IMG/VR virus record: IMGVR_UViG_3300030118_004474
Coordinates: 24,182 to 88,181 of that record
Source of the DNA: a virus
Reading direction: 5' to 3' (one strand)
DNA length: 64,000 nt
Below, piece after piece: positions 15,130 through 54,334 of the stretch. The notes under the pieces were generated by a model that had not been told where the DNA came from, did not search any database, and saw only the letters and a program-made list of their open reading frames with translations. The translations under genes were made by a program, and so were the position numbers. Numbering within the stretch: the first letter of the stretch is position 1; the number at the start of each line of letters is the position of its first letter.

Positions 15130-16047
15130 ATGTGGTTCAATGTGCTAAAAAACACAGAAAGGAGAGCCGCCTACCGTCAATTTCGCAATACTTTTTTCCC
15201 AAAGGGCGAGTTTTACTACGATATGTCCACAGTTGAAAAAATTAAAGATACTGAAAAAAGATATAATAAGGGGACGGCCCTTACCGTTATAGTAATAAAG
15301 CCAGCAAATGGTCTTTTTAGGCTTTATTTTAATCCTCTTTATAACAGAATAGTATTGGAAAGCGATGTCGCCAGTATTGCGCCCTATGTTGGATTCATTG
15401 CTGGTATGTTTGAGGAAGAATATCCGGAATCTTACCAATCCATCAGAGAGGAATTGACTTCTGTTTATAATAATCTGGCACACCCCGATGAAATCGCAGG
15501 GAGGGCGGAGCCTGTTCTCCCTATACCGAAAAGGGTCTTCAGAAAAATGAGGATTATTTTTCAAGAAATTTCAGACACCTTGCAAGAAAGAATAACTACA
15601 ACTGTTTCAGCCGATTCTAATAGAGCAGGTGGCTTATATCCGAGGTACGCACCACGTCCCTTTGACCCACGCCGACTAGTTGACACAATACGTATAATGT
15701 TTGATTATAGGCCCCCCATGAAAAAAATAATACAAAAATTTGATATGCCTTCAAACGAAAACGATATTCCCAAGGCTATATTACATTCAGTTTATACCCC
15801 TTTTATTTCAAATGCTAAAAGGGAATATCCGGATTTTGTTTGGGGACATATTGTTAATTTTTATGTTGCTTTCGGAGATTTACTGTCAAAACAAATAAAA
15901 GGCGATACAAGACTAGAAATATTTGATTCAATTATACAATATGACGAAGAGGAAGTAGCGGCATATATATTTCAAATTTGGCAAAGAGAAGACCGTTATA
16001 GAAATTTATTACTAGAAAATTTACCATATGAAGAATATAATGATTAA
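15130..16047 (+). CDS. Unknown protein with MW..VLK N-terminus, 305 residues
   Basis: I chose the ATG at 15130 (MWFNVLKNTERR) over one 39 bases upstream because GGAAGTGA lies nine bases before it and because it puts the recurring Met-Trp-x-x-[IV]-[LI]-Lys motif at the N-terminus. The remainder is a mixed alpha/beta protein with a basic Pro-rich middle (RYAPRPFDPRRLVDT) and no motif I can name. It opens the late rightward region. Candidate particle-associated protein by its shared N-terminus. Confidence 0.75.
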   Translation: MWFNVLKNTERRAAYRQFRNTFFPKGEFYYDMSTVEKIKDTEKRYNKGTALTVIVIKPANGLFRLYFNPLYNRIVLESDVASIAPYVGFIAGMFEEEYPESYQSIREELTSVYNNLAHPDEIAGRAEPVLPIPKRVFRKMRIIFQEISDTLQERITTTVSADSNRAGGLYPRYAPRPFDPRRLVDTIRIMFDYRPPMKKIIQKFDMPSNENDIPKAILHSVYTPFISNAKREYPDFVWGHIVNFYVAFGDLLSKQIKGDTRLEIFDSIIQYDEEEVAAYIFQIWQREDRYRNLLLENLPYEEYND

Positions 16048-16138
16048 ATTTACTGTGGGAATAAAAATAAAAAAGAAAAAAAAATTTCGCAAGTGGCAAA
16101 AAAATTCCGGGGCAATTTTTGAAAAAGGGGGTGCAATT

Positions 16139-17284
16139 ATGGGTTGGGAGAATGTAATAAAAAACGCCCAAGACGAAAGGATTCAAGAGATACAAGACCT
16201 TGTTAGCGAAATAAAAGAAAATGAGTTTTATGATGAAGCGGTGCGAATAAGTGGACCGTACACTTTTAGGAGTCACATTATCACAAATAATATATTAGAT
16301 GATAAGGTTGGGATTAAAGAAGCCCTCTACAATAATATTACTAAAGCAAAGCCCCAACTTGAGGGTATTGATTATGAAGACATACCCGAACCACTTTTAA
16401 ACAGGAGTTTTAGGGAAATTCGGGATATGCTTAGTAGTTTAAATAAGGCGTTAAAAAATTACCCAACACGCTTAAACAAAATGCAAGCGGCGTATGAAAG
16501 ACTTATATCCCACCCCGAATGGGACGAAAAATATCTAGACAATTCGGAAGCCAGCAAACTTAAAGTAGGGAGTTTCCATGAGGGAGTCGCAAAAATATTT
16601 AGGGGCTTGAATCAAGGGGAAATAAATGAAAAAACGCCTGTGAAAGATTTTGTTGATTTTTATGTGGATGGACCAAAGCGGCGAGATATTATTAGAATTG
16701 AAAACGCAATTATAGCGGCAACCCGTGACTTTTCTACAATTTATTCTAGGTTGAGTTTAAGTAGAAGTATGGGTTTCTTTGAAGATATGGGAAAAACTAT
16801 GGGCGTTGAGATTAAGCAAGACCAAAGAGGAAACCCATCCTTTGACCACGGCGGTTTAACTTTTTCATTTGAAGGTAAAACCAGTTTAGTAATAAATGGT
16901 GGTCCAACCCGTGTGTCAGTTTGTGTGGTGTCAAGGAATAAGTCCCTACCCATAGGGGACTATTATGCCCAATTACTTGGAATGGTTGTTGCTAGACCCA
17001 CGGAACTAGATGTAGTGGATTTCGGTATTCAACTCGCTAATATTTTCAAAAAATATGAGAACTATTGGGGTCAATTTACAAGGGCAAAGAGTGGGATTAT
17101 TATTTATACACCGTTTAGTAGGGATAATACGGAAAATGTTACATTTATGGGTTTAATAGATTTTTTATATGTATTGACACAGGGTAACATTTATGAAGCC
17201 GACCCCGAAATTGCAAAAGAATTACTACAAGAAATAGAGGGTGCTTTGATGGATTCTTTCGGTTCTACTAGGGGGTTCTTATGA
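16139..17284 (+). CDS. Unknown protein with MGW..VIK N-terminus, 381 residues
   Basis: Start at MGWENVIKNAQDE, with GGGGGTG upstream; a longer in-frame extension to 16028 overlaps the previous gene and has no ribosome site. A helical first half is followed by a beta-rich domain around residues 210-300 (GLTFSFEGKTSLVINGG, VSVCVVSRNKSLPIGDYY). No family recognised. AGA and TTA codons dominate. Coupled by ATGA to the next gene. Confidence 0.75.
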   Translation: MGWENVIKNAQDERIQEIQDLVSEIKENEFYDEAVRISGPYTFRSHIITNNILDDKVGIKEALYNNITKAKPQLEGIDYEDIPEPLLNRSFREIRDMLSSLNKALKNYPTRLNKMQAAYERLISHPEWDEKYLDNSEASKLKVGSFHEGVAKIFRGLNQGEINEKTPVKDFVDFYVDGPKRRDIIRIENAIIAATRDFSTIYSRLSLSRSMGFFEDMGKTMGVEIKQDQRGNPSFDHGGLTFSFEGKTSLVINGGPTRVSVCVVSRNKSLPIGDYYAQLLGMVVARPTELDVVDFGIQLANIFKKYENYWGQFTRAKSGIIIYTPFSRDNTENVTFMGLIDFLYVLTQGNIYEADPEIAKELLQEIEGALMDSFGSTRGFL

Positions 17285-18795
17285 TGTGGAAAGATATAAT
17301 TAAAAAGAATGTAGAAACTTATATTAAAAGATTTACGGATGTAATAACGTCAAAATATAGAGAACAGGTGGCTTTGCCCTACGCATCAAAGTCGGTGGAA
17401 GAAGTAGAAATTGAAAAAACTAGGTTTGCAGAACTTATGGAAATTTTAGAAGAGTTTTTAAGAGAATCATACCCAAAGTTAAAAATAAAAAATAGGGAAT
17501 GGAGTTCTATTAGATATAATTTTACTCTTTTACATGATAATCATGCTGGTACTGAATATCGGTCAAGCCAATTTTTTTCAATGCGGGCCGGTAGGTCATT
17601 TGTTACAGGATTACTGGCGACGGGTATTCACCCAGCATCAATTAGTAATCCAGCATTTTGGGAGGAATCAATACGACAATTTCTTGCTTCAATAAGGGCT
17701 TTGGATTTGTTTTGTAGTTCGGTTCCTTATGAATACATAAGAAGTTATGGTGGTGTAGGAAATGAAATGCACTTTGATATTGGCAACGCAACTATTAAAG
17801 TTGATTTAGACGATACATGTAATAATGCCGGAGAAGTTGCAGGATATGAATTTAGTATGTGTATAGCACCTTCAAGGGAATACGTAGAAACCCCACCTGC
17901 TGATAGGTGGTTAACTTATTATATGACTTATAGTAATTTAGAAAACATGGAAATTCGTGATATACAATCAATGGAAACAATGGGCCTACCTAATATTATT
18001 GGTTCGGTAGCCGCCGGTGAAGTAACCATTTCGTGTACTTATTGTGATTATTCTGAGATGTTTTCTATAAATAATTTAGGCTATGAAGAAGACTATTGCG
18101 ATTCTTGCGGAGCCTTACGCCGTTTGCGAGACATAGAAGATATGACCGCAGAAGAAGATGTGGGCGTTAAGGGAAATTTGGACCCCTCCTACATTGAGTG
18201 TCCTTTTGGTCATAATGTAGAATATTATAGTGGTCAGTTTATATGTGAGGAACACGGAGTCAATATTATAAGTGAAAGAGATTCTTCTTTTGAATATGAA
18301 GGTGATATAATAGGTGATTATAGAATTTATGACGGTAGGGTTCTTTCCATGCCTGATTTGTATGGACGAGAGACAGTTGATGTACCGTTGACTAATGAAA
18401 CTCTCAAAAGATATTTTGAACTAGAAGAATTATTAGATGAATTCGGTGAGATAAGAGAAATGGCTCTTGAAGCGTGGGGCTTTGAGCAAATGGAAGAAAG
18501 AGAAGATTTTTATTATTCCGAAGAAGAAGGGCTTTATTTAAACACATATGATGATTCGGTATCTGATGAAGCACCATCATTTACAGATGATAGATTTAAT
18601 AAAATGCGGGGATATATAATTGCCTCCGGTATAGATGTTGAAATTAATGACGAAGTTTCCTTTGAAGAGGCCTTAGAGGAAGCCATAGAAAAGGTTGAAG
18701 AAATAATTGAATTTACAGAAATAGATAGTGGGGAAGAATCCGATGCTGTGAAGAACGCAAAAAACCTCCTATCGGCATTACAATCTATGAGATGA
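17281..18795 (+). CDS. Unknown protein with MMW..IIK N-terminus and zinc ribbon, 504 residues
   Basis: Starts MMWKDIIKKNVETY at an ATGA overlap. Residues about 250-285 hold a zinc ribbon (CTYC, then CDSC after some 20 residues), and a further Cys/His group near residue 308 (CPFGHN, later CEEH) may form a second. The C-terminal third is very acidic. The N-terminal motif groups it with the set described in the findings. Function unknown. Confidence 0.75.
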   Translation: MMWKDIIKKNVETYIKRFTDVITSKYREQVALPYASKSVEEVEIEKTRFAELMEILEEFLRESYPKLKIKNREWSSIRYNFTLLHDNHAGTEYRSSQFFSMRAGRSFVTGLLATGIHPASISNPAFWEESIRQFLASIRALDLFCSSVPYEYIRSYGGVGNEMHFDIGNATIKVDLDDTCNNAGEVAGYEFSMCIAPSREYVETPPADRWLTYYMTYSNLENMEIRDIQSMETMGLPNIIGSVAAGEVTISCTYCDYSEMFSINNLGYEEDYCDSCGALRRLRDIEDMTAEEDVGVKGNLDPSYIECPFGHNVEYYSGQFICEEHGVNIISERDSSFEYEGDIIGDYRIYDGRVLSMPDLYGRETVDVPLTNETLKRYFELEELLDEFGEIREMALEAWGFEQMEEREDFYYSEEEGLYLNTYDDSVSDEAPSFTDDRFNKMRGYIIASGIDVEINDEVSFEEALEEAIEKVEEIIEFTEIDSGEESDAVKNAKNLLSALQSMR

Positions 18796-18802
18796 ACAAA
18801 AG

Positions 18803-18812: not shown

Positions 18813-18834
18813 GTAATAGTGGGGATGGTGTATC

Positions 18835-22259: not shown

Positions 22260-22612
22260 CAAGATGGTGGGACGTTGTTAAACTTCGCATGGGTCATTTA
22301 GAATATCTTATAAGGCAATTTACCTCCTTTCACAATACTTCATTAGCGAGAAATTATATTTCTAAAAAAGACAAGTCTCTAGCAGAACAACTTTTTCAAA
22401 AAATAATCAACATGTTAAATGACCCTAATTTATTTGATAAACTAGATGGTCGGGGAAACCCATTAGCAGACCCCATGAATTCTTATTACTCTTTACTAGT
22501 CGCTTCACCACAAATGCACCATAAGGACTTCGGGCATCTATATGAAGCCATTTTTGACCAATTAGAAGAAATGCGCCGCCTACAATTAGAAGGGGGCGGC
22601 GTAAGTGTTTAA
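22256..22612 (+). CDS. Protein with MTRWW..VVK N-terminus, 118 residues
   Basis: Begins MTRWWDVVKLRMGHLEYLI. Mainly helical; no recognised domain. GGGGGAG precedes the ATG, which overlaps the previous stop. Confidence 0.7.
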   Translation: MTRWWDVVKLRMGHLEYLIRQFTSFHNTSLARNYISKKDKSLAEQLFQKIINMLNDPNLFDKLDGRGNPLADPMNSYYSLLVASPQMHHKDFGHLYEAIFDQLEEMRRLQLEGGGVSV

Positions 22613-36557: not shown

Positions 36558-38309
36558 ATGAGTTTTATGAATCCGATATATGGTTTAAAAAGATTTATCT
36601 ATGAAAAAAGACCACAAACTACCGCTAAAGAAATGAATATGATAGTAGCGGAGGCTCAAAAATTTCAAAGAAAGGAATCATATCGTGGAGACATTTTAAC
36701 ACCCGATATAAGAAGATTTATCACAAGACTACCCGAACCAATTAAAACTGTTAGTGTGGACTCATTGGTTGATAGATTACTACCTTATACTCAAGTTCAA
36801 TCAACTAATCAGCGATATAACTACAATACAGATGATGGTCCGAGAACTGATAATACAAGAAGACTTGATACGAGAATAGGAACTTCTACCAAGTATGTTT
36901 CATTCATACCCGATTTTGCTTTACAGGGAACTAATCAAGAAAAACCCGATGCCCACGCTACCTTAAGAGAGTTAGATGGTATTTATACAGACAAGGGAAA
37001 TATTGTCATTGTTTCTATATCAAGATTAGAAGAGGCTCTAAGAGCAGATATATTTAATAAAAAACTACAAGCGTTATATTCTAACGTAATAGAATCTTTA
37101 CCAATTATTATAAATTTAACCAGCACAAGAGATAAGAAAAATTTTCTAAGAAAATTAAATAATTTAAGTTCTGATGCTATGGAAATGAGAGAAAACTTTT
37201 CTTTAGAACCAACAACAGAAGAAGGACAAATGGAAAAGTTTAAGAAAAATTGGAATACTATAAAACAAAGAATAAGAGGTTTAATCCCAATAGGTAGGGT
37301 CCCCAATAGAGAAATTCTTAGTTCAATAGCAAGGTATCTTCGTAATGACTATAAATTATCACTATTGGCGGCTCCTCTTTTTACAGTAGGTAGTGCATTA
37401 GAAGAAGATTTAGAAGAAAGAGTTTCGGAGAGAGCCAGTAGTTTAACTTTCGGTGATTATATTTTTAAGGCTATTTTACAAGCCGAGGGAGTAAAGGCGT
37501 TTCAGAATATTTCATTAGATAGTGATTATTCTCTTGAAGAAAGGGAGGATAGTTTCTTTGACAGAAAACCCGAAATAGCCGATAATAGACAACGGATTGA
37601 GCAACTCGCACTTCCGAAATTTAATGGTAAAAGATTTGTATTTAGGAGTCCAAACGGGGACGATATTATTTACTATTCTAGTGGGGTTATTACTCCTGAA
37701 CAAGTCAAAAGGAGACTACCCGAAAGTTATGAATTGGACCGTGAGGAAATTATTGATAATGTGATGGAGTATCAAGACAAACAAAGAGCAGACGCCAAAA
37801 GAGAAGAAAGACTCAAAAGAAAACTATCCACTTCTGATGTTGGTATTAGTGAATTTTATGATAACTTAGATGCTTATGCCGAACAACTTAGAAGAAGAGA
37901 ATCTAGAGGCGAGTATTTAAGTGATAGGGATAGTGAAGGTAGAGCAGTTTCACCCTCAATACAAAGGTTCATGCCATCAAAGTTTTACTTTCATCCGTTT
38001 GACTCTGATGTTGAACTTGACCCGGAATTGTTCAAAATGAAAATTTCTGAACTTCCGGAGGATGAACGACGCAGAATTAAAACGTTCTTACAGGATGCAG
38101 AGCCGACAGAATATTTTGGTGAGGAATACCTTAAACTAACAAAACTTATAAATACATTGGCTGATGTAGTGGATTCAACGGAAGAGGAAGAGTTAGAGGA
38201 TATGGATGTAGAAAATCTTAAACTCATTAAAAAGTTAGCCCACCTACGCAAAAGATATGAGAATCTTTATCAAGAAATTTACGGAATGGTATATGGGGAG
38301 GAAGAATAA
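36558..38309 (+). CDS. Unknown 583-residue head-module protein
   Basis: GAGGTGAAACT precedes the ATG (MSFMNPIYGLKRFIYEKRP). Helical with charged coiled-coil stretches toward the end (EEEELEDMDVENLKLIKKL). AGA-rich. No recognised domain. TAATG overlap with the next gene. Confidence 0.72.
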   Translation: MSFMNPIYGLKRFIYEKRPQTTAKEMNMIVAEAQKFQRKESYRGDILTPDIRRFITRLPEPIKTVSVDSLVDRLLPYTQVQSTNQRYNYNTDDGPRTDNTRRLDTRIGTSTKYVSFIPDFALQGTNQEKPDAHATLRELDGIYTDKGNIVIVSISRLEEALRADIFNKKLQALYSNVIESLPIIINLTSTRDKKNFLRKLNNLSSDAMEMRENFSLEPTTEEGQMEKFKKNWNTIKQRIRGLIPIGRVPNREILSSIARYLRNDYKLSLLAAPLFTVGSALEEDLEERVSERASSLTFGDYIFKAILQAEGVKAFQNISLDSDYSLEEREDSFFDRKPEIADNRQRIEQLALPKFNGKRFVFRSPNGDDIIYYSSGVITPEQVKRRLPESYELDREEIIDNVMEYQDKQRADAKREERLKRKLSTSDVGISEFYDNLDAYAEQLRRRESRGEYLSDRDSEGRAVSPSIQRFMPSKFYFHPFDSDVELDPELFKMKISELPEDERRRIKTFLQDAEPTEYFGEEYLKLTKLINTLADVVDSTEEEELEDMDVENLKLIKKLAHLRKRYENLYQEIYGMVYGEEE

Positions 38310-38533
38310 TGGAAGAAGTAGTAGAAATTATTAAGATGTTAATAACAAGAATTGAAAATTTAGAAACACAAGTAAAGGAAGCGAATATGAATTTGATGAA
38401 ATCGGGTATTGTAGTTCACACTCCCCGACCATCAATGACAGTTTCAAACCCCGTCCCATCGGGAGACACAATCGCTAAAATGGATTGGGACGAACTAAAC
38501 GAATTAGTAGGAAAATTGGAGGGTACAATATGA
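38309..38533 (+). CDS. Small coiled-coil protein, 74 residues
   Basis: Residues 1-30 form a heptad helix (VVEIIKMLITRIENLETQV); then a Pro/Ser-rich linker and the end MDWDELNELVGKL. May be a scaffold or assembly factor given its position before the ligase and protease genes. Confidence 0.6.
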   Translation: MEEVVEIIKMLITRIENLETQVKEANMNLMKSGIVVHTPRPSMTVSNPVPSGDTIAKMDWDELNELVGKLEGTI

Positions 38534-38961
38534 GCATGATAGAAGAAAAACCAACAGATGATTTGAGAGATAGCCGAATGCTTTTAACAAGGCTTATTGA
38601 ATTAGAAACTCATATCACAAACGCTCTTGGTCTTATGGCTGAAACTGGGGAGGAACGTCCATATAAAAAAGTAAAGCCCCAACTTAAGGATGTTATGGCT
38701 ATGGCCGCAAAAGCAAAGCCCGGAACTATTTCCGAGGTTAAGAAAAGCCGTCAACACAAACTTTTGCCGGAATACATGGTCTATAAAAGCAAAGAAGAGG
38801 AGAGGGGCGAACCCCGTAGGGAAGATTCAGAACTACCGGAAGACTCCCAAGATAAGGATTTAGTAGCGGCCCTTGAAACAGCATTAGAAAAACTACGCAG
38901 GGCTAAACACACTTTGCGAGTTTCCGAAGAATCTGCATTTGTTCCCTCCGATGAAGCATAG
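38530..38961 (+). CDS. Unknown 143-residue protein
   Basis: Start at MSMIEEKPTDDLRDSR, ATGA overlap with the previous stop and GGAGGG upstream. Helical ends with a charged, disordered-looking middle (KSKEEERGEPRREDSELPEDS). No family recognised. Confidence 0.62.
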   Translation: MSMIEEKPTDDLRDSRMLLTRLIELETHITNALGLMAETGEERPYKKVKPQLKDVMAMAAKAKPGTISEVKKSRQHKLLPEYMVYKSKEEERGEPRREDSELPEDSQDKDLVAALETALEKLRRAKHTLRVSEESAFVPSDEA

Positions 38962-38971
38962 GGGGATAAAA

Positions 38972-41056
38972 ATGACAGTTGATTTTTTTTCAATCGCTAA
39001 GAATAAAGTTTCCTTGACTAATAAAATAAGGGCTACATATTTATCTGCCTTGGAGAATCCCAAGGCTTATGATTACGAATGGGAACAACTTGTAGTTGAA
39101 TTAAGAAATCTTTTAAAAGACCCAACATATCAAGAGATGTTTCCTAATTTAGAGACAGAAATTTTATATTCTGATAAAACCCTTGATGTTAAAGAGAAGA
39201 GAGCGAGACAAGTATATGAATCTTGTATGAATAAACCTATGCTTGTAAAAGAAGACGAGGAAATGAAATCTTTTATTGAACCTAATAAACCAATGTATAG
39301 GATTTTTTCAATTGATGATATGAGAGAAATTAAGGGACTTACTGGTGAATATATTATTCAAGAAAAGTATGATGGGTTGCGTGTTCAAGTTCACAAGAAG
39401 GGTGATAAAATAACCATATATTCCTTTAGTGGAAGAGACATTACATCCAAGTTTCCCAAGTGCGTTAAATATTTAAAGGAAAAAGATACCAATAATTTTA
39501 TACTTGATGGCGAAGCAGTTCTTTATAAAGACAACGAACCTTTAGTAAGGGCCGATACATTAGCCCATATAAATAAAAAGGTTGATTCAGAAGAGGATAT
39601 TAAAATACATGTCTTTGATATTATGCACTACAAAGACAGTTCCGTTGCTATGGAAAAATTTGAAGATAGAATAAAAATTCTAATTGGAGAATTTAGTGGC
39701 CTTACAAATGAAGTAGTTCTTTTTCCCACGAAACAAAATACCCGTGAGGCAGACTCATATGATGAAATAGAAGAATATGCTATGGAAATTATGAAAAACC
39801 CAACCTCCGAAGGAGTCGTAATTAAAGACGCTAAATCTTCCTATGTTATAGGTAAAAAGAAAAATCCTAAGTGGATTAAGTGGAAAAAGGTCATTGACTT
39901 AGATGTATTGGTATTGGGTAAAAGAAAAAATAAAAATGGGACCTTTACATATATGGTCGGCGTTGGCCCAGTTGAAGAAGAAACGCCCAAGGCAAGAGAA
40001 TATGAGGGTAATTTTTATGCTGATGTCGGTAAGACTACCAATACAAAAGTAAATGTGGAAGAGGGTAAAATTATCCGTGTTAAGGTAGATGAAGTTATGG
40101 GTAATTCTAAAAAGGGGTTCAGTTTATACAATGCCCAATTTCACGAAATACCCGAAGTTTCTGAATCAGATAAGTTGATTACATTAGAGTTCTTAACAAA
40201 GAACGGAAGAAAAAGTTTAGCCGACTACAAAGTAGAAGCCCTTAAAAAATCATACGTTATTACAGACGGCGTTCATGGTATTGCTAAAATGAATTTAGAA
40301 TTAAATATGGATGGTTTGGTTTTTCACGGTTTTAAGGAAAAAAATCTTATGTCAAAAAATGCCTATCCCAATATGGATGTTTGGAAAAAAGAAATCAAAA
40401 GGGCCTACGGAAAAGATAGTGGTAGGTTCATGGCTTTTGTTCAAAATATTTTAATTGACGAAGGGACTAAATCGTTAGAGGAATTATTTAGGCGAGGTAT
40501 GGACCATGATGCAAATATGATGAATCGTTTATTTGGTGATAAGGAAGGAAAGAAAAAAATGAAACAGCGTCTAATGGAGGCTGGCGATGCCTACGGTATT
40601 AAAGGCAAAGACCGTTTCTTCTACGACGATTTAACTCTTAATAAAATGGAGGAAAATAAAGCCGAGTTTTTAATGTGGCTTGGTAAAGATGAAAAAATAT
40701 ACTTCACTATTAAACATGAAGATTTTGAAAATAACTGGGCTATTGACATTCGTTCCAAGGAAAACATATACGACTTCTTAGGAGAGGCTGGTAAATACCC
40801 TGTTAGTTTGGTATCTTCTATTAATGATGATATGCTAATTGATAAAGGAAGTGCGCTATTGGGAGCACAAAGACATGGTTATCATGAATATATTCTAAGT
40901 GGGGATGATGTGCAATCTAAATTACACATAAGATATTTACCTGTTGGGGATGAAAAAATGTGGTTGGCCTTTACAGGTTATGAGACAAAACCTACTCCTG
41001 AAAGTTCAGATGAAGGTTTAAATGATGCTAGGGCTGATAAATTTATCAAAATGTAA
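38972..41056 (+). CDS. ATP-dependent DNA ligase with extra C-terminal domain
   Basis: Seals nicks in DNA using ATP. The nucleotidyltransferase motifs are all present: EKYDG at 131-135 with Lys132 as the adenylation site, FSGRDIT, FILDGEAVLY at 176-185, EGVVIK at 280-285 and WIKWKK at 301-306, followed by an OB-fold-like region. The last 250 residues are not part of a standard ligase; HGYHEYILSG, then LHIRYLPVGDEKMWLAF faintly resembles the LigD phosphoesterase fold, which I do not claim. The start at 38972 has GGGGGAT upstream. It is oddly placed inside the head-assembly module. Confidence 0.9.
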   Translation: MTVDFFSIAKNKVSLTNKIRATYLSALENPKAYDYEWEQLVVELRNLLKDPTYQEMFPNLETEILYSDKTLDVKEKRARQVYESCMNKPMLVKEDEEMKSFIEPNKPMYRIFSIDDMREIKGLTGEYIIQEKYDGLRVQVHKKGDKITIYSFSGRDITSKFPKCVKYLKEKDTNNFILDGEAVLYKDNEPLVRADTLAHINKKVDSEEDIKIHVFDIMHYKDSSVAMEKFEDRIKILIGEFSGLTNEVVLFPTKQNTREADSYDEIEEYAMEIMKNPTSEGVVIKDAKSSYVIGKKKNPKWIKWKKVIDLDVLVLGKRKNKNGTFTYMVGVGPVEEETPKAREYEGNFYADVGKTTNTKVNVEEGKIIRVKVDEVMGNSKKGFSLYNAQFHEIPEVSESDKLITLEFLTKNGRKSLADYKVEALKKSYVITDGVHGIAKMNLELNMDGLVFHGFKEKNLMSKNAYPNMDVWKKEIKRAYGKDSGRFMAFVQNILIDEGTKSLEELFRRGMDHDANMMNRLFGDKEGKKKMKQRLMEAGDAYGIKGKDRFFYDDLTLNKMEENKAEFLMWLGKDEKIYFTIKHEDFENNWAIDIRSKENIYDFLGEAGKYPVSLVSSINDDMLIDKGSALLGAQRHGYHEYILSGDDVQSKLHIRYLPVGDEKMWLAFTGYETKPTPESSDEGLNDARADKFIKM

Positions 41057-41112: not shown

Positions 41113-42306
41113 ATGCAATTAGCAACACCTATGTTTGGTAATCTTCCTACTGATGGTGGGGAATTTGTCATTCTAAAGGAAAATAAGGATTGTGTTATTG
41201 CTGGCTACGCATCTGTTGATGTAGTGGATAAACAAAATGATAAAATTACTCTTAACGCAATTCGTGAAGCGGCAGATGGATTTATGAAAAACGACCGCTT
41301 CCGAAATGTTATGATTACTCATTCAAATGTTCAAGTGGGTGAGGTCTTAGACAATTATACAGATTCCAAAGGAAAAGTCCTAAAAACAGGCGTAGATGAG
41401 ACAGGTTTTTTTGTAGTGATAAAGTTAAGAAATGATATTGAGAAGGCAAAGGAAGTGGCGAGGGATATTCGTCGTGGAAAACTCCGTTCTTTCTCAATTG
41501 GAGGACAGGCAATTAACAAAGCCAATAAATATGACCCCGATGTTGGGAGTTATAAAGAAATTGACAAGTTAGAATTGCATGAAATCACCATTTGTGAAGA
41601 AGGGATTAATCCCGAAGCCAAATTTAATATAATTAAGGAGGATAAAAAAATGAGCGAAATTGAAAAGGCCTTGGCCGAATTTAATGATGTAATGGCTGAA
41701 CTGAAAAACACCGTGTTGTTGAAGGACGACGACGACGATGAAAAGATGGAAGGAGCCGCTTCCCACGATGACGAAAAAAAGGAATTGCGTGGCGGAAGTA
41801 AAGAAGAAATGATGGAAAGAGCCATGTATGATGAAGACTCATCGGATGAAATGATGATGGAAGAAGCAGAAATGGCTGACTATGACAAAGAATACATGAA
41901 AGAGGAAGAAGACAAAGAAGCCCTTGAATACATGGAGCGAAAGGGTGTTGATACTTTGGACCTTTCTCCCTCTAACATTGAAAAAGCATATGAACATTTC
42001 CGTGCAGAAAAAGAGGAGGAGAGAGCATACGATTTGATTAAAAATGAGTTTGAGGCTCGCTATGCAAAGGAACTTGAATTGGAGAAGGCTGAAATTGCTA
42101 AGTCCAAGTTCAATCCACAAAACGAACTTTCTCAACTTCGTGAAGAACTTTCTTCCTTGAAGAAGAGTTTGGAAAATAATGAAATTGCTAAGGCACAAAC
42201 GGTTGAGGAAACGACCCGTCAACTTAGCGAAGATTTTTCTCGTGTAAATGAAATGTCGTGGGATGAAATTCACGACCTTTTCTCAAAGCACAAGGGGGGT
42301 ATCTAA
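41113..42306 (+). CDS. Prohead protease fused to scaffold domain
   Basis: The first 180 residues are a phage prohead serine protease: CVIAGYASVDVVDKQND, then MITHSNVQVGEV with the catalytic His and LRSFSIGGQAI with the catalytic Ser, as in XkdF-type maturation proteases. The remaining half is acidic, coiled-coil and scaffold-like (KDDDDDEKMEG, then ELEKAEIAKSKFN). Such fusions assemble the procapsid and then cleave the scaffold and cargo. Directly upstream of the capsid gene, with its own promoter. Confidence 0.88.
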   Translation: MQLATPMFGNLPTDGGEFVILKENKDCVIAGYASVDVVDKQNDKITLNAIREAADGFMKNDRFRNVMITHSNVQVGEVLDNYTDSKGKVLKTGVDETGFFVVIKLRNDIEKAKEVARDIRRGKLRSFSIGGQAINKANKYDPDVGSYKEIDKLELHEITICEEGINPEAKFNIIKEDKKMSEIEKALAEFNDVMAELKNTVLLKDDDDDEKMEGAASHDDEKKELRGGSKEEMMERAMYDEDSSDEMMMEEAEMADYDKEYMKEEEDKEALEYMERKGVDTLDLSPSNIEKAYEHFRAEKEEERAYDLIKNEFEARYAKELELEKAEIAKSKFNPQNELSQLREELSSLKKSLENNEIAKAQTVEETTRQLSEDFSRVNEMSWDEIHDLFSKHKGGI

Positions 42307-42307
42307 A

Positions 42308-43534
42308 ATGAGTGGGTATTTTAAGACAATTGGAGACTTGGAGCGAGCAACCTATGGATTTGGTAGCGATAACCTAATGAAAGCAACTGGTATTACTACG
42401 GGCATTCACAATGTTCACAGTCTTGCTACACAAGCAGGAACTCTTGATACGAGCCTTCACAACTTAATTTATGGTCAGAAGGTTTGGTCAATGATTAACC
42501 GTGAAATCAACGCCTTGTCAATTCTTCCTAAGAAACCTTGGAAGTCAAGTGGATGGCGAATTCTGAAAGAGCGAGCCTTGGGCGGTGCAGAAGACACCTT
42601 TACTGTAACTGATTCTGATAGCCTCGGTGGAACTGCTGAAAATGAAGCACTTTCCAACATTACGAACATCAGGCCTCTTTATGAGAACTTGCATGTTTCA
42701 CCAAAGACTATTGCACACACGTTTGAAATTTCTGAAATTGCTCAAATGTTGGCTGGTCTTGACGATGGTTTGGGAGACTTGATTGCTACCTACCGTGAAG
42801 AAGTTGGTGTGTCTCACGCAGAAGCCATGAACAAAATGATTCTGCACGACCTTACAAATACGGCTGGTGTTGGTCTTGCCGCAACCTCTCTTACAGGAGA
42901 AAACAATATGTTGGAATCTCTCTTCCGAATTGTTTCTAACTTTGCTGAAACCGATGCTCTTAGCGGCTACGGAAGCGGTGAAGATAAGAATAAGATTTAC
43001 GGTGTTTCTCGCCATGCTACTGATGCGGCTTACCTTGAGTCCTTTGTTGACTCCAATGGGGGAACCGAGCGAAATCTTACCGTGAATATTCTTAATACGA
43101 CCCTTCGTAATTTGATGGCCCGTGGTGGAGAACCCAAGGTTATTTTGACTGGATATGATACCATTCAAACCCTTGGTGAACTGCTTCAAGCACAAGAGCG
43201 TTTCATGGGAAGAACGGAAATTACGCCAACCCATAACGGAATTAGAGGTGTTGATGGTAGAGAAGTCGGTTTCCGAGTTGCTACCTATCACGACATCCCA
43301 ATTATCCCTGTTAAGGATATGCCAAACGGCGGTGCTGGAATTTCGGATATTCTTATCCTTGATACCGACCACATTTTCCTTTGCACTTTGAAGCCTACGG
43401 AATACTTTGAAGGTGGCATTGGCACGGATGTTTTCGGACACGGAAAGTTGGGCCACCGAGGGCTTTACAGAACTGTTGCAGAAGTGGTTTGTTCCTACTT
43501 CCGGGGACAAGGTAAAATCCTTGACCTTCAATGA
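42308..43534 (+). CDS. Major capsid protein
   Basis: 408 residues starting MSGYFKTIGDLERATYG after GGGGGG; this start is preferred over a longer upstream extension. It follows the protease-scaffold gene, as HK97-type capsid proteins do, and its codons (CGT, CGA, CTT, AAC) differ from the surrounding AGA/TTA-rich genes, as expected for a very abundant protein. The sequence has the N-terminal helix, long spine helix and beta-rich ends of the fold, but I infer identity mainly from context. Confidence 0.85.
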   Translation: MSGYFKTIGDLERATYGFGSDNLMKATGITTGIHNVHSLATQAGTLDTSLHNLIYGQKVWSMINREINALSILPKKPWKSSGWRILKERALGGAEDTFTVTDSDSLGGTAENEALSNITNIRPLYENLHVSPKTIAHTFEISEIAQMLAGLDDGLGDLIATYREEVGVSHAEAMNKMILHDLTNTAGVGLAATSLTGENNMLESLFRIVSNFAETDALSGYGSGEDKNKIYGVSRHATDAAYLESFVDSNGGTERNLTVNILNTTLRNLMARGGEPKVILTGYDTIQTLGELLQAQERFMGRTEITPTHNGIRGVDGREVGFRVATYHDIPIIPVKDMPNGGAGISDILILDTDHIFLCTLKPTEYFEGGIGTDVFGHGKLGHRGLYRTVAEVVCSYFRGQGKILDLQ

Positions 43535-48475: not shown

Positions 48476-48892
48476 ATGTATAATATAAAATTGGGTTGGG
48501 AAATTATTTTAAAGGAACTTGCTTGCCCAAAGGCTACGCAAGATTTAGAATTAAATACAAAAAATAGAGATGCGGCAGTAAAGGCAGAACATATTCAATA
48601 TGGGCCTCTAAATTTAGAGGACGAAGACTACTGGGAAAGATACGCTAAGCGTTGGAACACTACTGCCGATGTAGCAAAACAGTCTAATTGTAGTAATTGT
48701 ATTGCTTTTGATATTTCACCAAGAATGGATAAGTGTATGCCTTTAACCACAGATGAAGATGGTCGTTTGGGTTATTGTTGGATGCACCATTTCAAATGCC
48801 ATAGTGCTAGAACGTGCTACACTTGGGCTAAAGGTGGACCTATTGATGATGACAAAACTTCAAAAGAAAATCAAATGAGGGGAGAACAATGA
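48476..48892 (+). CDS. Cysteine-rich marine viral protein, 138 residues
   Basis: Contains CPKATQDLELNTKNRDAA, then CSNCIAFDISPRMDKCMP and YCWMHHFKCHSARTCYTW, a Cys/His-rich family that I recognise from marine phages; function unknown. The MxW-type stretch GWEIILKE is at residues 7-14 because of an extended start (MYNIKL). Whether a TTG nearer the motif is used is unclear. Confidence 0.75.
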   Translation: MYNIKLGWEIILKELACPKATQDLELNTKNRDAAVKAEHIQYGPLNLEDEDYWERYAKRWNTTADVAKQSNCSNCIAFDISPRMDKCMPLTTDEDGRLGYCWMHHFKCHSARTCYTWAKGGPIDDDKTSKENQMRGEQ

Positions 48893-49254
48893 CGTGGAAA
48901 AAAATATTAAAAGCCCATTGTACGGGTGATGACGATAAACAAGACATGGATAAGAAATTATACGGTGGACAGAAAAAACTAGACAAAGATGGAGACGGCG
49001 ACTTAGATGCAGAAGACTTCAAAATGCTTCGTGATGAAAAGAAGCAAGATGTTGAAGCAATTATTATTCGCACTTTGAAAGATGAAGGTGGGGCTTCGGG
49101 CTTAGAACCTTTGGAGAAGGAAACCGGATTGTCTAAAAAAGAACTAAAGAAAAAACTTAAGGAAATGAAAAAGGTTGCTAAACATAAAAACGGCGACTAT
49201 ATTTTACTTGAAGGACTACCTAAACCAAGAGGCGCATTTACGGATAAGGATTAG
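48889..49254 (+). CDS. MTW..ILK protein with EF-hand and winged-helix-like parts, 121 residues
   Basis: Begins MTWKKILKAHC. Residues 30-46 include DKDGDGDLDAEDF, a canonical 12-residue EF-hand calcium loop. The C-terminal half (VEAIIIRTLKDEGG, LEPLEKETGLSKKELKKKLKEM, HKNGDYILLEG) has winged-helix order. The combination suggests a calcium-responsive DNA-binding protein. Seawater calcium versus the cell interior could matter; this is inference. Confidence 0.72.
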   Translation: MTWKKILKAHCTGDDDKQDMDKKLYGGQKKLDKDGDGDLDAEDFKMLRDEKKQDVEAIIIRTLKDEGGASGLEPLEKETGLSKKELKKKLKEMKKVAKHKNGDYILLEGLPKPRGAFTDKD

Positions 49255-49361: not shown

Positions 49362-49760
49362 GTGTGGAAAAATATACTAAAACAGTTTCCTAATAAAGAG
49401 GATAAAAAACAAATAGTCTATGCTACTATTAGATACATGTTAGAGGACTCTTCTTTTCAACCAGTTGAGGGCTTTACTTATCAAAATACGGTTGCTTCTA
49501 TACACGAACTTTACGAGAATGTGGTTGAAAAGAACTTATATCCTAAGTTTCGTATGACTAAAAAACAATACTTAGATATTATCTTGGGGTCAATTACTTC
49601 TATTGGTGGTATGCACTACTTGATAATACCTCAAAAAATGTTGACTCATTCTCCTAGAAGTAATAACCTCACACTAATAAGAGATACAAATAGAGATAAA
49701 TTAACAGACGGCTCATATTTTAAGGATTCGGTGGGTTCGTTTTCATTTGAAGAATATTAG
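49362..49760 (+). CDS. MW..ILK protein, 132 residues, GTG start
   Basis: GTG after GGAGAG gives (M)WKNILKQFP. The rest is helical with a winged-helix-like stretch (KKQYLDIILGSITSIGGMHYLI). No family recognised. Confidence 0.72.
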   Translation: MWKNILKQFPNKEDKKQIVYATIRYMLEDSSFQPVEGFTYQNTVASIHELYENVVEKNLYPKFRMTKKQYLDIILGSITSIGGMHYLIIPQKMLTHSPRSNNLTLIRDTNRDKLTDGSYFKDSVGSFSFEEY

Positions 49761-50422: not shown

Positions 50423-50427
50423 TAAAT

Positions 50428-51216
50428 ATGCCCATTACAGAAAAAAACGGCAAGTGGTATTGGGGAGAACAAGGCCCCTATGATACCAAAGAAGCGGCCC
50501 AACGGGTTGCTACTGCCGCCTATTTGAGTGGGTATAAAAAGAAAACTGGTGTGATGCCCAAAAAGAAACCTTACAGGGGTAAGTTTATTCGTGATGGGAA
50601 AATTGTTCGTAAGAATGAAGACCCCACGGAAAAGTCAAAACAATGGTTAATTGATACCGTGGAAAGAGCATACCCCCAAGTAACAAACCTTAAATTTGGG
50701 GGTAGACCTGTAATTGATGGTGGATTTATCACCTTTGATTGTCATAATTTAAAGTGGCGTGTTGATTTAAATTTAACTACTTGGTTTGCTCCTTTTGGTA
50801 ATTATATAGTTTGTGTAGTAGACGACAATTATAGGGCGGCACTTTATGATAAATTTTTAACAAGGATAGATGTAATAGCAAACCAAACTTTTGGGATAGT
50901 TCCTGTTCTTGAGTTTGCTTGGAAACTCTACCAATTAGATTTAGCGTATCCAAAGTTTTATTTTTATGGAGAATATTATACGCCAATTAAAGGCCCTCAC
51001 AATACTTTTTATGACAGTTATAAATTTTTAAAAGGTGCTACTCAAATTAACTTAACTGAATGGAAAAGAGGCGTAAGGTTTGACGACGAGGAAAGAGAAG
51101 AAAAAACTACCTTAGAAAACGAAGAAGTTTATAACGAAACAAGTAAAATGGCTAAAGAAAAGTTAGAGTTGGTTAGAGAATTATATCATCAAATTTTTGG
51201 AGGGAATCTACGATGA
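50428..51216 (+). CDS. Unknown 262-residue protein
   Basis: Start MPITEKNGKWYWGEQGPYD; an ATG nine bases upstream (ATGA overlap) is also possible. The opening GKWYWGEQGPYDTKEAA is a small module I have seen in other viral proteins. Then a basic linker (MPKKKPYRGKFIRDGKIVRK) and a mixed alpha/beta domain. No MxW motif. Confidence 0.7.
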   Translation: MPITEKNGKWYWGEQGPYDTKEAAQRVATAAYLSGYKKKTGVMPKKKPYRGKFIRDGKIVRKNEDPTEKSKQWLIDTVERAYPQVTNLKFGGRPVIDGGFITFDCHNLKWRVDLNLTTWFAPFGNYIVCVVDDNYRAALYDKFLTRIDVIANQTFGIVPVLEFAWKLYQLDLAYPKFYFYGEYYTPIKGPHNTFYDSYKFLKGATQINLTEWKRGVRFDDEEREEKTTLENEEVYNETSKMAKEKLELVRELYHQIFGGNLR

Positions 51217-51521
51217 GTTGGGAAGAAGTCCTCAAAAGAAAGAAGCGCAAAAAGAAAGGGCGCAAGAAAAAGCGCAAGAAGTCGGGAGATAACTTCAAGC
51301 GTGAAAAGGACGAAGGACTCCACGGCTGGTTCTCTCGTAGGGGAGGAAAAGAAGGCAAAGGAAAAAAAACTCAACGGGGCTGGATTGATTGTTCAACCTG
51401 TGGGTCCAAGAATGGACCAAAGCCCTGCGGGAGGAAGGATGCTTCTAAGGGTAGAAAGAGGAGATGTCGTCCCACTTGTGCGGCCTGTAAAACTTACAAA
51501 AGAAGGAGGGGAACGCGATGA
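51213..51521 (+). CDS. Very basic MSW..VLK protein, 102 residues
   Basis: Begins MSWEEVLKRKKRKKK; almost a third of residues are Lys or Arg. Contains GLHGWFSRRGGKEG and a Cys set (DCSTCGS, CRPTCAAC) typical of a small viral family found in marine phages. Could coat or condense DNA in the particle (inference). Confidence 0.72.
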   Translation: MSWEEVLKRKKRKKKGRKKKRKKSGDNFKREKDEGLHGWFSRRGGKEGKGKKTQRGWIDCSTCGSKNGPKPCGRKDASKGRKRRCRPTCAACKTYKRRRGTR

Positions 51522-51883
51522 GTTGGGAAAATATTCTTAAAAGAAGCGGAAACATAAAAAAAATTAATATGCCCCTTCTTAGAGAAGCCCTCGGAAACGC
51601 TACGGCTACTCTAGCAGAATTTACCTTACCCGAAATTTTACCACTCGCCCAAGAATTATATAGGGAGTATTTAATTAGGGACGGTATTTATGCTAACGAT
51701 AGATTAGGTCGGTCTAATGCCACTAGACACTCTACGGGGGTTTTTGATAATCCGCGTGGTAGAACAAGTTTTTTTGGTAAAGTTATTAATAATCTAGGAG
51801 TTCACAAGCCGACTACACGCATGAAAACTTTACCAACGGGAACGAATGAAACTATTTATGCTAGAAGGGAGGAAACACGATGA
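51518..51883 (+). CDS. MSW..ILK protein, 121 residues
   Basis: Begins MSWENILKRSGNIKK. Helical first half (LREALGNATATLAEFTLPEI) and a basic, probably flexible second half. ATGA overlaps on both sides. No family recognised. Confidence 0.7.
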   Translation: MSWENILKRSGNIKKINMPLLREALGNATATLAEFTLPEILPLAQELYREYLIRDGIYANDRLGRSNATRHSTGVFDNPRGRTSFFGKVINNLGVHKPTTRMKTLPTGTNETIYARREETR

Positions 51884-52326
51884 GTTGGAAAGGTATTCTC
51901 AAAAGGGATATGTCCTATTGTGTTTGTAGCGGTCCTAATAAAACAAAGGGCTTTACATGTAAGGCCCATTGTCGTAGCAAACAAATGAAAAAAGCAGACC
52001 CCAAGAAAGGAACGGGAAAAAAACCAAAGGGTTCAAAAAGAAGATTATATACAGATGAAAACCCAAAAGATACCGTTAGGGTAAAATTTAGAACAGCAAA
52101 GGACGTAAGAGACACATTCGCAAGTTCAGCATTTAAATCAAAATCACATAAAAGAAAATCACAAATTATTAATTTAGTAGAGCAAAGGGCTAGAGTAGCG
52201 GCTAAAAGAGCAAAGGACCCCAAGGCCAAGAAGAGACTTAAGGCCGCACACGCAGTAGCCCTATCTAGAAAAAAATCTAGCAAAAGAAAAACTAAAAGAA
52301 TGAAAAAGAAGGGTGGTAGAAAATGA
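51880..52326 (+). CDS. Very basic MSW..ILK protein, 148 residues
   Basis: Begins MSWKGILKRDMSYCVC. A Cys-rich segment (CVCSGPNKTKGFTCKAHC) is followed by Lys-rich runs. A middle part starting YTDENPKDTVRVKFRTAKDV and a helix (NLVEQRARVAAKRAKDP) recall a marine viral family. The tail is Lys/Arg-rich. Probably DNA-binding. Confidence 0.72.
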   Translation: MSWKGILKRDMSYCVCSGPNKTKGFTCKAHCRSKQMKKADPKKGTGKKPKGSKRRLYTDENPKDTVRVKFRTAKDVRDTFASSAFKSKSHKRKSQIINLVEQRARVAAKRAKDPKAKKRLKAAHAVALSRKKSSKRKTKRMKKKGGRK

Positions 52327-52562
52327 ATTGGAAAAATATACTACACAAGGGGATGTCCAAGAAAACTAGAGAGGTATTTAACAAACAGGTTATAGAAATA
52401 CTATCTAAAGAAAATAACTTACCTGCCGGGATTATCTATGACCGTTTATCTAAAAGATTCAGAAACCAAATAATACCTAGTGCAATTGGTGGTTATATAA
52501 AAAGGATTCCGGGCATTTCTTACACAGGTGGTAGGGGCGGTATTTTTACCTTGGATGATTAG
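52323..52562 (+). CDS. Winged-helix-like MNW..ILH protein, 79 residues
   Basis: Begins MNWKNILHKGMSKKTREV; then FNKQVIEILSKENNLPAGIIYDRL, NQIIPSAIGGYIKRI and GGRGGIFTLDD give helix-helix-helix-wing order. DNA binding inferred. Confidence 0.68.
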   Translation: MNWKNILHKGMSKKTREVFNKQVIEILSKENNLPAGIIYDRLSKRFRNQIIPSAIGGYIKRIPGISYTGGRGGIFTLDD

Positions 52563-52598
52563 AAAAACTTAATAAGAAGGAAACAATAAGGTGATAAT

Positions 52599-52820
52599 AT
52601 GAGCAACTGGTGGGGTATAATTAAAGAGCCTAAAAAACCCCGCATTAAGATAGGGGCGGGGCCTCCCCGTGAAGTTTCCCGTGAAATGGAAGAAGATATT
52701 GATGCCGTAGTAGAACAAGAAACCAAGGACTATAAAGAAAGAAATAAACCTAAAAGTAGATTTATAGGCGGTGGATTTATAGAGAGTGGTAAAACTAAAA
52801 AGAAATACAAGGGGAGATAG
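52599..52820 (+). CDS. MSNWW..IIK protein, 73 residues
   Basis: Begins MSNWWGIIKEPKKPRIK; Gly/Pro-rich and charged, probably disordered beyond the motif. AGGTGATAAT precedes the ATG. No family recognised. Confidence 0.65.
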   Translation: MSNWWGIIKEPKKPRIKIGAGPPREVSREMEEDIDAVVEQETKDYKERNKPKSRFIGGGFIESGKTKKKYKGR

Positions 52821-52823
52821 AGC

Positions 52824-53141
52824 GTGTGGGAAGATGTTCTAAAATCCAAGAAAAAAAAGACTCAAATTAAAAGAGTCAAGGGTGGAGTAATGTACCGTGG
52901 AGAAAGATTTCCCGGCGTGAATAAACCTAAACGCGCCCCTAAAGGTAGTAAAAAGAAATACCGAGTTCTTGCTCATCAGAACGGAAAATACCGGGTAGTT
53001 TCCTTCGGGGCAAGAGGATATAAAGATTTCTTACAACATAAAAGCAGTAAGAGAAGAAAGAATTTTAAATCAAGACATAATTGTAAGCAGAAGAAAAATA
53101 AACTGACTGCTGGTTGGTGGGCTTGTAATTATAATTGGTGA
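52824..53141 (+). CDS. Basic MW..VLK protein, 105 residues, GTG start
   Basis: GTG after GGGGAGATAG gives (M)WEDVLKSKKKKTQ. Contains FPGVNKPKRAPKGSKKKYR, YRVVSFGARGYKDFLQHK and SRHNCKQKKNKLTAGWWAC, a family common in marine phages and of unknown function. Strongly basic. Confidence 0.75.
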   Translation: MWEDVLKSKKKKTQIKRVKGGVMYRGERFPGVNKPKRAPKGSKKKYRVLAHQNGKYRVVSFGARGYKDFLQHKSSKRRKNFKSRHNCKQKKNKLTAGWWACNYNW

Positions 53142-53145
53142 TAAC

Positions 53146-53868
53146 ATGAGTTGGTTTGATGTTTTGAAATACAAAGTTTCCCGTGCTGATTCAAGGGCGA
53201 ACGCCAAAAAATTAAGGACTATTCTTAGACCAATGGTTTTTGAGTTTGCAGAGGAAATTGGTAATAGGGCTAGTGAAATAGATTATAATGAACTAAGACG
53301 ACTAGCGAAAAAAGAATTTTTACAAGACAGAAGACGTGAAATTGTAACTAATCCAAAAGTAGAAGAACTAGGATTAGCCCGTAATTCAGTAGGTAGTTTG
53401 TTGAGTAGGGGTCTTCCTAATATTATGTTAATGATAACATACAAATTAAAAGAGATGGGTTTTGAGCCTTCTTCAAGACGTTCGGGTTATTATTATAGAA
53501 AACGACTAAAAAAACAATACGTAGATTCTATTCAGAAAAAAAGAAAGGGTCGTCCTTCTAATATAAAAACAATAGCAAGAAATGTTAGAGGTGTCGCTAG
53601 GCCGCTAGTTAATGAAGCAGTTGAAGAATTTATCGCTAATAAAAATAAGGTTTCTATGGATGATTTAAGAGATATTGTAGAGGAAATTGCTAAAGATTTA
53701 CATGCCCACCCCGACCTACAATATTTAAATCCCTCTCAAAGAGGAGCATATATAAATGCTGAAAAGGGTTCTTTTTTAAAAACTGCCTCCTACAAAGTTA
53801 CCCAGTCCGGTTTTATTTACAAAGTTTCGGGTGTAGCGGGGCGTTCCGAATATGTTAGGGCGGAGTAA
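53146..53868 (+). CDS. MSW..VLK protein with duplicated domain, 240 residues
   Basis: Begins MSWFDVLKYKVSRADSR. Two related halves follow: LRPMVFEFAEEIGNRASEID to SGYYYRKR, and ARPLVNEAVEEFIANKNKVS to SGFIYKVSG. Each has helices and a closing wing-like strand, so a tandem winged-helix-like unit is likely. Confidence 0.7.
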   Translation: MSWFDVLKYKVSRADSRANAKKLRTILRPMVFEFAEEIGNRASEIDYNELRRLAKKEFLQDRRREIVTNPKVEELGLARNSVGSLLSRGLPNIMLMITYKLKEMGFEPSSRRSGYYYRKRLKKQYVDSIQKKRKGRPSNIKTIARNVRGVARPLVNEAVEEFIANKNKVSMDDLRDIVEEIAKDLHAHPDLQYLNPSQRGAYINAEKGSFLKTASYKVTQSGFIYKVSGVAGRSEYVRAE

Positions 53869-53870
53869 TA

Positions 53871-54077
53871 ATGTTTAGAAAAATCATAGAGAAATTATCC
53901 GAAACTCAAAATGAGATGGAGGAAATTCTTCAAAGGATTATTTCACAAAATAAAGACATGGAAGACCTTTCCGAAGAACTACTGGGAGAAAGATTATCTG
54001 ATGAAATTATGTCGCAGGTTATTGAACAAGAATTTACAAAAGTTATTGAGGAGCGTATTAAGGAGGCATTTGAATGA
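53871..54077 (+). CDS. Coiled-coil protein, 68 residues
   Basis: A single long amphipathic helix by composition (MFRKIIEKLSETQNEMEEIL, then LSDEIMSQVIEQEFTKVIEE). The N-terminus MFRKIIEKL resembles the MxW motif without Trp. ATGA overlap downstream. Confidence 0.62.
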   Translation: MFRKIIEKLSETQNEMEEILQRIISQNKDMEDLSEELLGERLSDEIMSQVIEQEFTKVIEERIKEAFE

Positions 54078-54334
54078 CTAGTGAATGGGTTATAGTGCTA
54101 AAGGGCAAAAAAATGTCTGATAGGTCCAAAGATGTTATAACGATGGTTATGAGAGATGGACAGGAAAGAAGCATTAAGCAAATTATAGAAGACGCTTCTA
54201 TCTATGTAAAAAAACACCCGGTAAAACACACCCTAAAAGATGTTCCTACAAGTAGAGAACTTTCTTCTCACTTTAGAAGTAATCCCGACTATCAAAATAT
54301 GGGAGGAACCCCCACCATGTATAGGAGAGTTTAA
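54074..54334 (+). CDS. MTSEW..VLK protein, 86 residues
   Basis: Begins MTSEWVIVLKGKKMSDR. Helical with a winged-helix-like order (VITMVMRDGQERSIKQIIED, VPTSRELSSHFRSNPDY). Last member of the MxW set. DNA binding inferred. Confidence 0.66.
   Translation: MTSEWVIVLKGKKMSDRSKDVITMVMRDGQERSIKQIIEDASIYVKKHPVKHTLKDVPTSRELSSHFRSNPDYQNMGGTPTMYRRV

Follow-up and report, generated by a model that had tools for sequence, protein, structure and literature searches.

A bipartite N-terminal tag on diverse proteins of a magrovirus-like virus as a probable removable capsid-loading signal

Why do 22 proteins with otherwise different bodies, all encoded in one stretch of viral DNA, open with nearly the same few residues? 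The stretch in question (hereafter the window, 64,000 nucleotides long) comprises bases 24182-88181 of the 88,181-base IMG/VR record IMGVR_UViG_3300030118_004474, and each of these proteins begins with Met, followed by Trp and then [ILV]-x-Lys, an opening that we refer to as the tag. We propose that the tag is a removable capsid-loading signal, which docks cargo proteins in the prohead and is then cut by the virus's own S78 prohead protease, and we give this reading a probability of about 0.82. A preliminary description of the window, made from its letters alone, had suggested for the opening a role in loading proteins, either into the capsid or onto the scaffold. Taken together, the recurrence of [ILV]-x-K in head proteins, a Met-x-Trp motif in the scaffold, the confinement of the tag to the structural strand, its chance-level occurrence in cells and the matches of tagged proteins to cyanophage domains argue for that suggestion.

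The tag and the proteins that bear it

In the window, all 22 listed starts show the bipartite form on the + strand, and 18 of them also fit the strict form M-x(0-5)-W-x-x-[IV]-[LIV]-K, while the other four (18835 MKWMEFLKK, 21485 MKWKEEIKK, 48235 MDIWWDIIQK and 52323 MNWKNILHK) keep [ILV]-x-K soon after the Trp. The translations agree with the shared Met-Trp-Lys opening of the preliminary description, although its count of about 23 exceeds the 22 starts that it listed, and the GTG starts that it assigned at 22605, 49362 and 52824 are correct. Its start at 48476 should probably be replaced by a TTG at 48491, since relatives begin with M[NSG]WE[IV]ILKEL at that point. The tagged proteins are as follows, with lengths in amino acids (aa) and with translation and motif as the evidence unless other evidence is named.

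15130..16047, + strand: MWFNVLK-, 305 aa
16139..17284, + strand: MGWENVIK-, 381 aa
17281..18795, + strand: MMWKDIIK-, 504 aa
18835..19050, + strand: MKWMEFLKK- (bipartite form only), 71 aa
21485..21670, + strand: MKWKEEIKK- (bipartite form only), 61 aa
21685..21900, + strand: MSWETILK-, 71 aa
22008..22259, + strand: MTWEDIVK-, 83 aa
22256..22612, + strand: MTRWWDVVK-, 118 aa
22605..23372, + strand: MFNWFDVLK- (GTG start), 255 aa
48235..48471, + strand: MDIWWDIIQK- (bipartite form only), 78 aa; C-terminal domain matches T4-like cyanophage polyproteins
48491..48892, + strand: MGWEIILK- (TTG start), 133 aa; homologue in phage DSL-LC01 adjoins capsid protease genes
48889..49254, + strand: MTWKKILK-, 121 aa, weak EF-hand match
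49362..49760, + strand: MWKNILK- (GTG start), 132 aa
49772..50422, + strand: MWDKILK-, 216 aa
51213..51521, + strand: MSWEEVLK-, 102 aa; second cyanophage polyprotein domain, E 4e-5
51518..51883, + strand: MSWENILK-, 121 aa
51880..52326, + strand: MSWKGILK-, 148 aa; third cyanophage polyprotein domain, E 8e-7
52323..52562, + strand: MNWKNILHK- (bipartite form only), 79 aa
52599..52820, + strand: MSNWWGIIK-, 73 aa
52824..53141, + strand: MWEDVLK- (GTG start), 105 aa, DUF5754; profile match, E 9e-12
53146..53868, + strand: MSWFDVLK-, 240 aa
54074..54334, + strand: MTSEWVIVLK-, 86 aa

To follow the tag beyond the window, relatives were gathered from IMG/VR by the major capsid protein (MCP), by a DNA pattern for MxWEDILK and by a protease profile, which gave at least 249 loci with at least 737 distinct tagged proteins. 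These fall into at least 323 unrelated body clusters (234 singletons among those listed), in keeping with the earlier claim that the bodies are unrelated. Pooled over the at least 737 proteins, the tags give the logo M-[STN]-W-[EK]-[DN]-[IV]-[LI]-K, roughly the eight residues MSWEDILK, with a Met-to-Trp spacing of zero to five residues. Since W, [IV], [LIV] and K were built into the search pattern, each position was re-checked by leave-one-out: among the matches listed, K followed M[STND]W..[IV][LIV] in 96% (background 7.5%), and Trp was present in 97% given the remaining motif (background 1%). The information in the tag stops sharply past the Lys, falling from 3.2 at that position to 0.26 at the next residue and ∼0.05 beyond.

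Chance as the origin of the tag was ruled out by the internal-Met, strand and leave-one-out controls. At internal Met residues of window open reading frames (ORFs) of at least 100 aa, the strict motif was found at 2 of 403 positions, both of which are true tag starts (16139 and 22256), leaving 0 of 401, and on the - strand it had 0 matches both in the window and in the MCP relatives. In eight near-complete relatives, whose records were scanned in pieces, all 127 tags lie on the structural-gene strand, with genes split about evenly between the strands. Tagged genes number 9–22 per genome, and the prohead protease gene described below was present in 35 of the 46 tag-rich long records searched, all of one clade. 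Runs of 3–8 adjacent tagged genes that are alike just past the tag (L170:424-5128, L071, L083:2752-7966 and L110) are possibly tandem paralogues.

The preliminary description had named the opening of many host proteins by the motif as an outcome that would tell against its proposal, and this outcome is not seen. Across 84,980 cellular genomes (257 gigabases), the tag DNA pattern had 66 scattered matches against the ∼48 expected by our own information estimate, a level near chance, and a host origin of the tag was ruled out on this ground. Four of the matches, in DHVE2 archaea (L182, L221, L240 and L242), all start with MPWEDILKRT[RQ]EL and reach 647 aa in the two longest; they are most likely a single protein family, whose likeness to the tag is likely a coincidence.

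Nearly all tagged bodies were without a named family in profile searches. Named bodies include DUF5754 in the window (52824) and, in relatives, a PAP2 phosphatase, a pentapeptide-repeat protein, a weak S-adenosylmethionine lyase match and a CCA tRNA nucleotidyltransferase tagged MGWMQILK (L099:6432-7679, - strand). As for the body types proposed at the outset, the EF-hand of 48889 came back as a weak match below the cut-off (E 0.004), and zinc ribbons and winged helices were not confirmed. Positive charge was rejected as a common cargo trait, with a mean of -0.8 per 100 residues over 315 bodies; because an excess of positive charge is not general, DNA binding is not common to the tagged bodies.

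Matching motifs in the head proteins

The window's head genes comprise a terminase, a portal, an S78 prohead protease and an SU10-like MCP, and the MCP has its nearest counterparts among named phages, with 27% identity, in the haloarchaeal viruses HCTV-1/5 and HVTV-1. Elsewhere the record encodes a family B DNA polymerase (PolB), a chaperonin (Cpn60) and a PD-(D/E)XK nuclease, and the record is laid out in two opposed gene blocks, with replication and virion genes on opposite strands. Magroviruses, whose hosts are Poseidoniales, abundant archaea of the ocean, have genomes of 90–110 kb with their own PolB, opposed replication and virion strands and Druskaviridae-related head genes (PMC12999244, PMC10768690). 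Since its size, gene set and opposed gene blocks agree with these, the record fits a magrovirus-like archaeal member of the Caudoviricetes (order Magrovirales) in architecture and homology, and at 88 kb it is probably near complete. The head proteins and the sites within them that resemble one or the other half of the tag are as follows.

38309..38533, + strand: small putative core protein, 74 aa, with invariant [LI]-x-K (K31), I-[AS]-K (K57) and C-terminal M-[DS]-W as in the scaffold
41113..42306, + strand: fusion of an S78 prohead protease with the scaffold, 397 aa, fold nearest T4 gp21
41170..41178, + strand: I-L-K at the protease N-terminal edge, residues 20-22, putative self-cleavage site, 100/100 relatives
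41623..41637, + strand: F-N-I-I-K where protease and scaffold join, residues 171-175, a candidate site of self-cleavage kept in 101/101 relatives
42184..42192, + strand: I-A-K of the scaffold, residues 358-360, a candidate cut site whose K is kept in 82% of relatives
42253..42282, + strand: MSWDEIHDLF motif at the scaffold C-terminus, residues 381-390, with its Trp conserved at 99% and a modelled helix starting there
42308..43534, + strand: HK97-fold MCP, likely start M21 of the ORF opening at 42248
42374..42382, + strand: L-M-K then Ala in the MCP, residues 43-45, a candidate cut site that reads [LIV]-[LM]-K in 94/94 relatives

The protease has a profile match to Peptidase_S78 (E 2e-11), and the best fold matches of its model are T4 gp21 first and then a herpesvirus protease. 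The AlphaFold model of the MCP resembles HK97-fold shells by structure comparison, while neither the MCP nor the protease profile found a match among solved-structure sequences. The MCP reading frame (42248-43534) opens within the scaffold gene, and Met21 at 42308 is probably its true start.

The end of the tag, [ILV]-x-K, has the same pattern as the sites in the MCP, protease, scaffold and core protein, at which cleavage is predicted from sequence and whose conservation was scored over about 95–101 relatives. At K22 of the protease, Ile is found in 98 relatives and Val in 2, followed by Leu in 97, and the surrounding flanks are variable, as is often so at these sites; the junction site at K175 has the consensus F-[DN]-I-[LVI]-K, and [LI]-x-K at K31 of the core protein is kept in 101 of 101 relatives. 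In the AlphaFold models, the MCP site falls in a disordered, low-confidence stretch between the N-terminal helix and the HK97 core; as for the protease-scaffold, its K175 and K360 both fall in low-confidence loops. Other conserved Lys residues exist within folded domains, and Lys conservation alone is no proof; the candidate sites lie at domain edges. For the portal as a protease substrate, no comparable edge site was seen. From these patterns, [ILV]-x-K is probably the cut site of the virus's S78 protease.

The first half of the tag recurs at the opposite end of two head proteins. The protease-scaffold ends with M[SDT]W.., in which the Trp is 99% conserved, and the core protein (38309) ends alike, with its Trp also conserved at 99%. 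Among 12,178 C-termini, Met-x-Trp near the end was found in 80 protease-scaffolds, 66 core proteins and 6 others (4.5 expected). The Ser, Thr, Asn or Asp ahead of the Trp, together with the Asp, Glu or Asn two residues on, resemble a helix-capping box. Within one orthologous family, Trp and [IL]xK are both kept and the spacing between them varies (MTWDYYGEGEEFILK, MSWQYTLQK, MTWEHILRK), and because of this variation the halves of the tag appear separable, with apparently different jobs. Targeting and processing residues also differ in the capsid-targeting sequence (CTS) of T4 (PMC9026906).

Three of the tagged proteins, 48235, 51880 and 51213, each match a different domain of a single T4-like cyanophage polyprotein, at 62–84%, 32–35% and 33% identity, respectively. 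In nine of nine cyanophages, the T4-type cut site [IL]-x-E lies at most 20 residues ahead of the 48235-type domain, although these nine phages are related to each other and do not amount to nine independent tests; elsewhere in the cyanophage polyproteins [IL]-x-E is rare, with an overall frequency of 0.5–1.3 per 100 residues. This arrangement suggests that the same cargo may be processed by each virus's own head protease. The likeness of the 48235-type domain could reflect either exchange across host domains or very strong constraint. This domain, of ∼44 residues and 76–84% identical between the window protein and the T4-like cyanophage polyproteins (cyanophage loci L357-L369), occurs in 365 phage records, mostly from cyanophages.

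Two neighbours of the head genes deserve mention. An ATP-dependent DNA ligase at 38939-41056 sits in the structural gene block, a position that is kept in relatives. A variable protein at 36558-38309 lies between the portal and core genes, and its C-terminal domain occurs in distant relatives as a stand-alone protein of 110–120 aa with a canonical or modified tag.

A removable loading signal and its alternatives

From the tag, the common Lys site, the Trp motif, the strand restriction and the gp21-like protease that we observe, we infer docking, cleavage, packaging and delivery in the following manner. The first half of the tag, Met-[Ser/Thr/Asn]-Trp-[Glu/Lys]-[Asp/Asn]-Ile, is probably a capped amphipathic helix and would dock the cargo in the assembling prohead, most likely at the place used by the scaffold's C-terminal Met-Ser-Trp helix. 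Because scaffold, core protein and cargo all have the Trp motif, we prefer docking to the shell and tentatively place it on the inner face. After assembly, the S78 protease would cut after the Lys of [ILV]-x-Lys; these cuts would trim the MCP, free the protease itself and separate the scaffold and core protein from the tails by which they dock, and the cargo bodies would be released into the head, packed with the DNA and probably injected. Since a cut after Lys leaves an ordinary tryptic end, the semi-tryptic mass spectrometry search proposed in the preliminary description would be unsuited to detecting it. We also lean, by a little, towards the stronger idea that the cargo mimics the scaffold, such that the tag copies the docking helix, eight codons make a head cargo, and one Lys-specific step frees the scaffold and 10–20 or more proteins per virion.

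Several points weigh against capsid loading. Of 75 relatives, only 22 have the canonical tag on the protein of the 36558 family, and the window copy is untagged. Some tagged proteins are not obvious head contents, namely the large ones, which run up to ∼990 aa, and the CCA tRNA nucleotidyltransferase. The fold match of the protease to gp21 is modest (E 0.02, probability 0.97), and the conservation counts all come from within one clade and are not independent of each other. Strand restriction alone is no proof of packaging, because the structural strand may carry other late genes. Finally, the shell as the receptor of the tag is a guess, and no magrovirus is in culture.

A different partner for the tag is the alternative that survives best, though we consider it rather unlikely: the tag would bind the scaffold core or the protease, not the shell, and its likeness to the scaffold C-terminus would be coincidental or would serve scaffold self-assembly. 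In T4, internal proteins join the scaffolding core and have their CTS cut by gp21 (PMC3012670, PMC9026906), and the fusion of protease and scaffold in the present virus means that a protease-engaging tag would couple docking to cutting. However, a C-terminal Met-x-Trp (Trp ∼99%) that is nearly confined to the scaffold and core protein points to one partner that is neither of those two.

It is improbable that the tag does no more than offer the protease a cut site behind a helical lead-in, on late proteins that need trimming and enter the head otherwise. The [ILV]-x-K part is common to the other putative substrates, as such a view would expect, yet Trp is found in 97% of tags while no other conserved site has Trp there, and the Trp motif at the scaffold C-terminus has no overlapping cut site. 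Less probable again is a localisation signal apart from the capsid (for membrane, viral DNA or a replication compartment) or a binder of host proteins. The tagged bodies are diverse, and short amphipathic N-terminal peptides are able to bind membranes or partner proteins, but the eight near-complete records have 0 tagged genes on the replication strand, and both halves recur in head proteins, the Lys site in the capsid protein and the protease, the Trp motif in the scaffold.

The weakest candidate, a translation-start or recombination signature in the DNA, can be dismissed as very improbable: Ser codon 2 is AGT in 96% of tags (the share is 30% in bodies and 42% where other genes have Ser as codon 2) and in 108 of 212 tags the start lies within an ATGA overlap with the upstream gene, but the tag codons for Asp, Ile, Leu and Lys are near background usage with synonymous variation seen inside the motif, ATG, GTG and TTG all serve as starts, and the spacing ranges from zero to five residues. 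This near-background usage rules out a DNA-level signature, codon 2 excepted. The same usage at Ile, Leu and Asp supports the earlier claim that selection acts on the protein, a claim that must be qualified at codon 2, which is not neutral. The AGT bias there persists without the ATGA overlap and possibly reflects common descent of the tag.

Significance and comparison with known systems

If capsid loading is correct, the tag would be the first such signal described in an archaeal virus; none was found in the open-access literature searched, and an earlier mention in other magrovirus papers is possible. By a search for it, hundreds of genes that still lack a name in uncultured marine viruses could then be listed as candidates for proteins that travel in the virion and are possibly injected. 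The tag would also predict the protease specificity, the mature ends of the capsid proteins and scaffold-mimic docking, and would provide a new tag for putting proteins into HK97-fold shells. Scaffold mimicry, if true, would mean a tag-coded, rapidly exchangeable virion payload in one of the commonest groups of marine archaeal viruses.

The nearest isolated relatives, the Druskaviridae HVTV-1 and HCTV-1, have a related MCP and [ILV]-x-K candidates at the protease edges and the MCP N-terminus (V/L-F-K-S/A, V-S-K-A and L-R-K-A), whereas the N-termini inspected show no Trp tag and the scaffold lacks a Met-Ser-Trp tail. Because similar sites occur there without the Trp tag, the comparison suggests that the cut site may be old and the tag newer. 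Possible cargo in these viruses consists of large multi-domain proteins, unlike the magrovirus tagged proteins. The HVTV-1 protein gp115 (L316:13623-17564), which is large and annotated as a zeta toxin, has repeated [IV]-L-K followed by Asp before repeated W-V-S-D-P-T and is possibly a cut polyprotein cargo.

In P22 and herpesviruses, a C-terminal coat-binding helix of the scaffold binds the shell and can be used for loading fused cargo, whereas here many cargo proteins carry a similar motif by nature, at the N-terminus. The cargo-loading peptides of encapsulins are short and load cargo into an HK97-fold shell, but they are usually C-terminal and uncut, and are not known to involve a protease or scaffold. 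In contrast, the shell here is a viral MCP encoded beside a terminase, portal and prohead protease, and the tags are N-terminal.

In the giant phages phiKZ, SPN3US and 201phi2-1, a diverged gp21-like protease processes numerous proteins of the head and of ejection; the cuts follow Glu, and a short common N-terminal tag of the present kind is not described in the sections of PMC9026906 that we draw on. Closest in logic is the T4 CTS (on IPI-III and Alt, with gp21 as the protease; PMC9026906, PMC3012670), which is, like the tag, a short N-terminal signal on unrelated, fast-changing proteins, with separate targeting and processing residues and a gp21-fold protease that has putative sites at its own edges. 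The magrovirus tag differs in being unrelated in sequence and centred on Trp, in recurring at the scaffold C-terminus, and in marking 9–22 genes per genome in archaeal viruses, and its putative cut follows Lys in [ILV]-x-K (96%), not Glu in [IL]-x-E. On our best reading of this analogy, the tag would be a convergent counterpart of the T4 capsid-targeting sequences.

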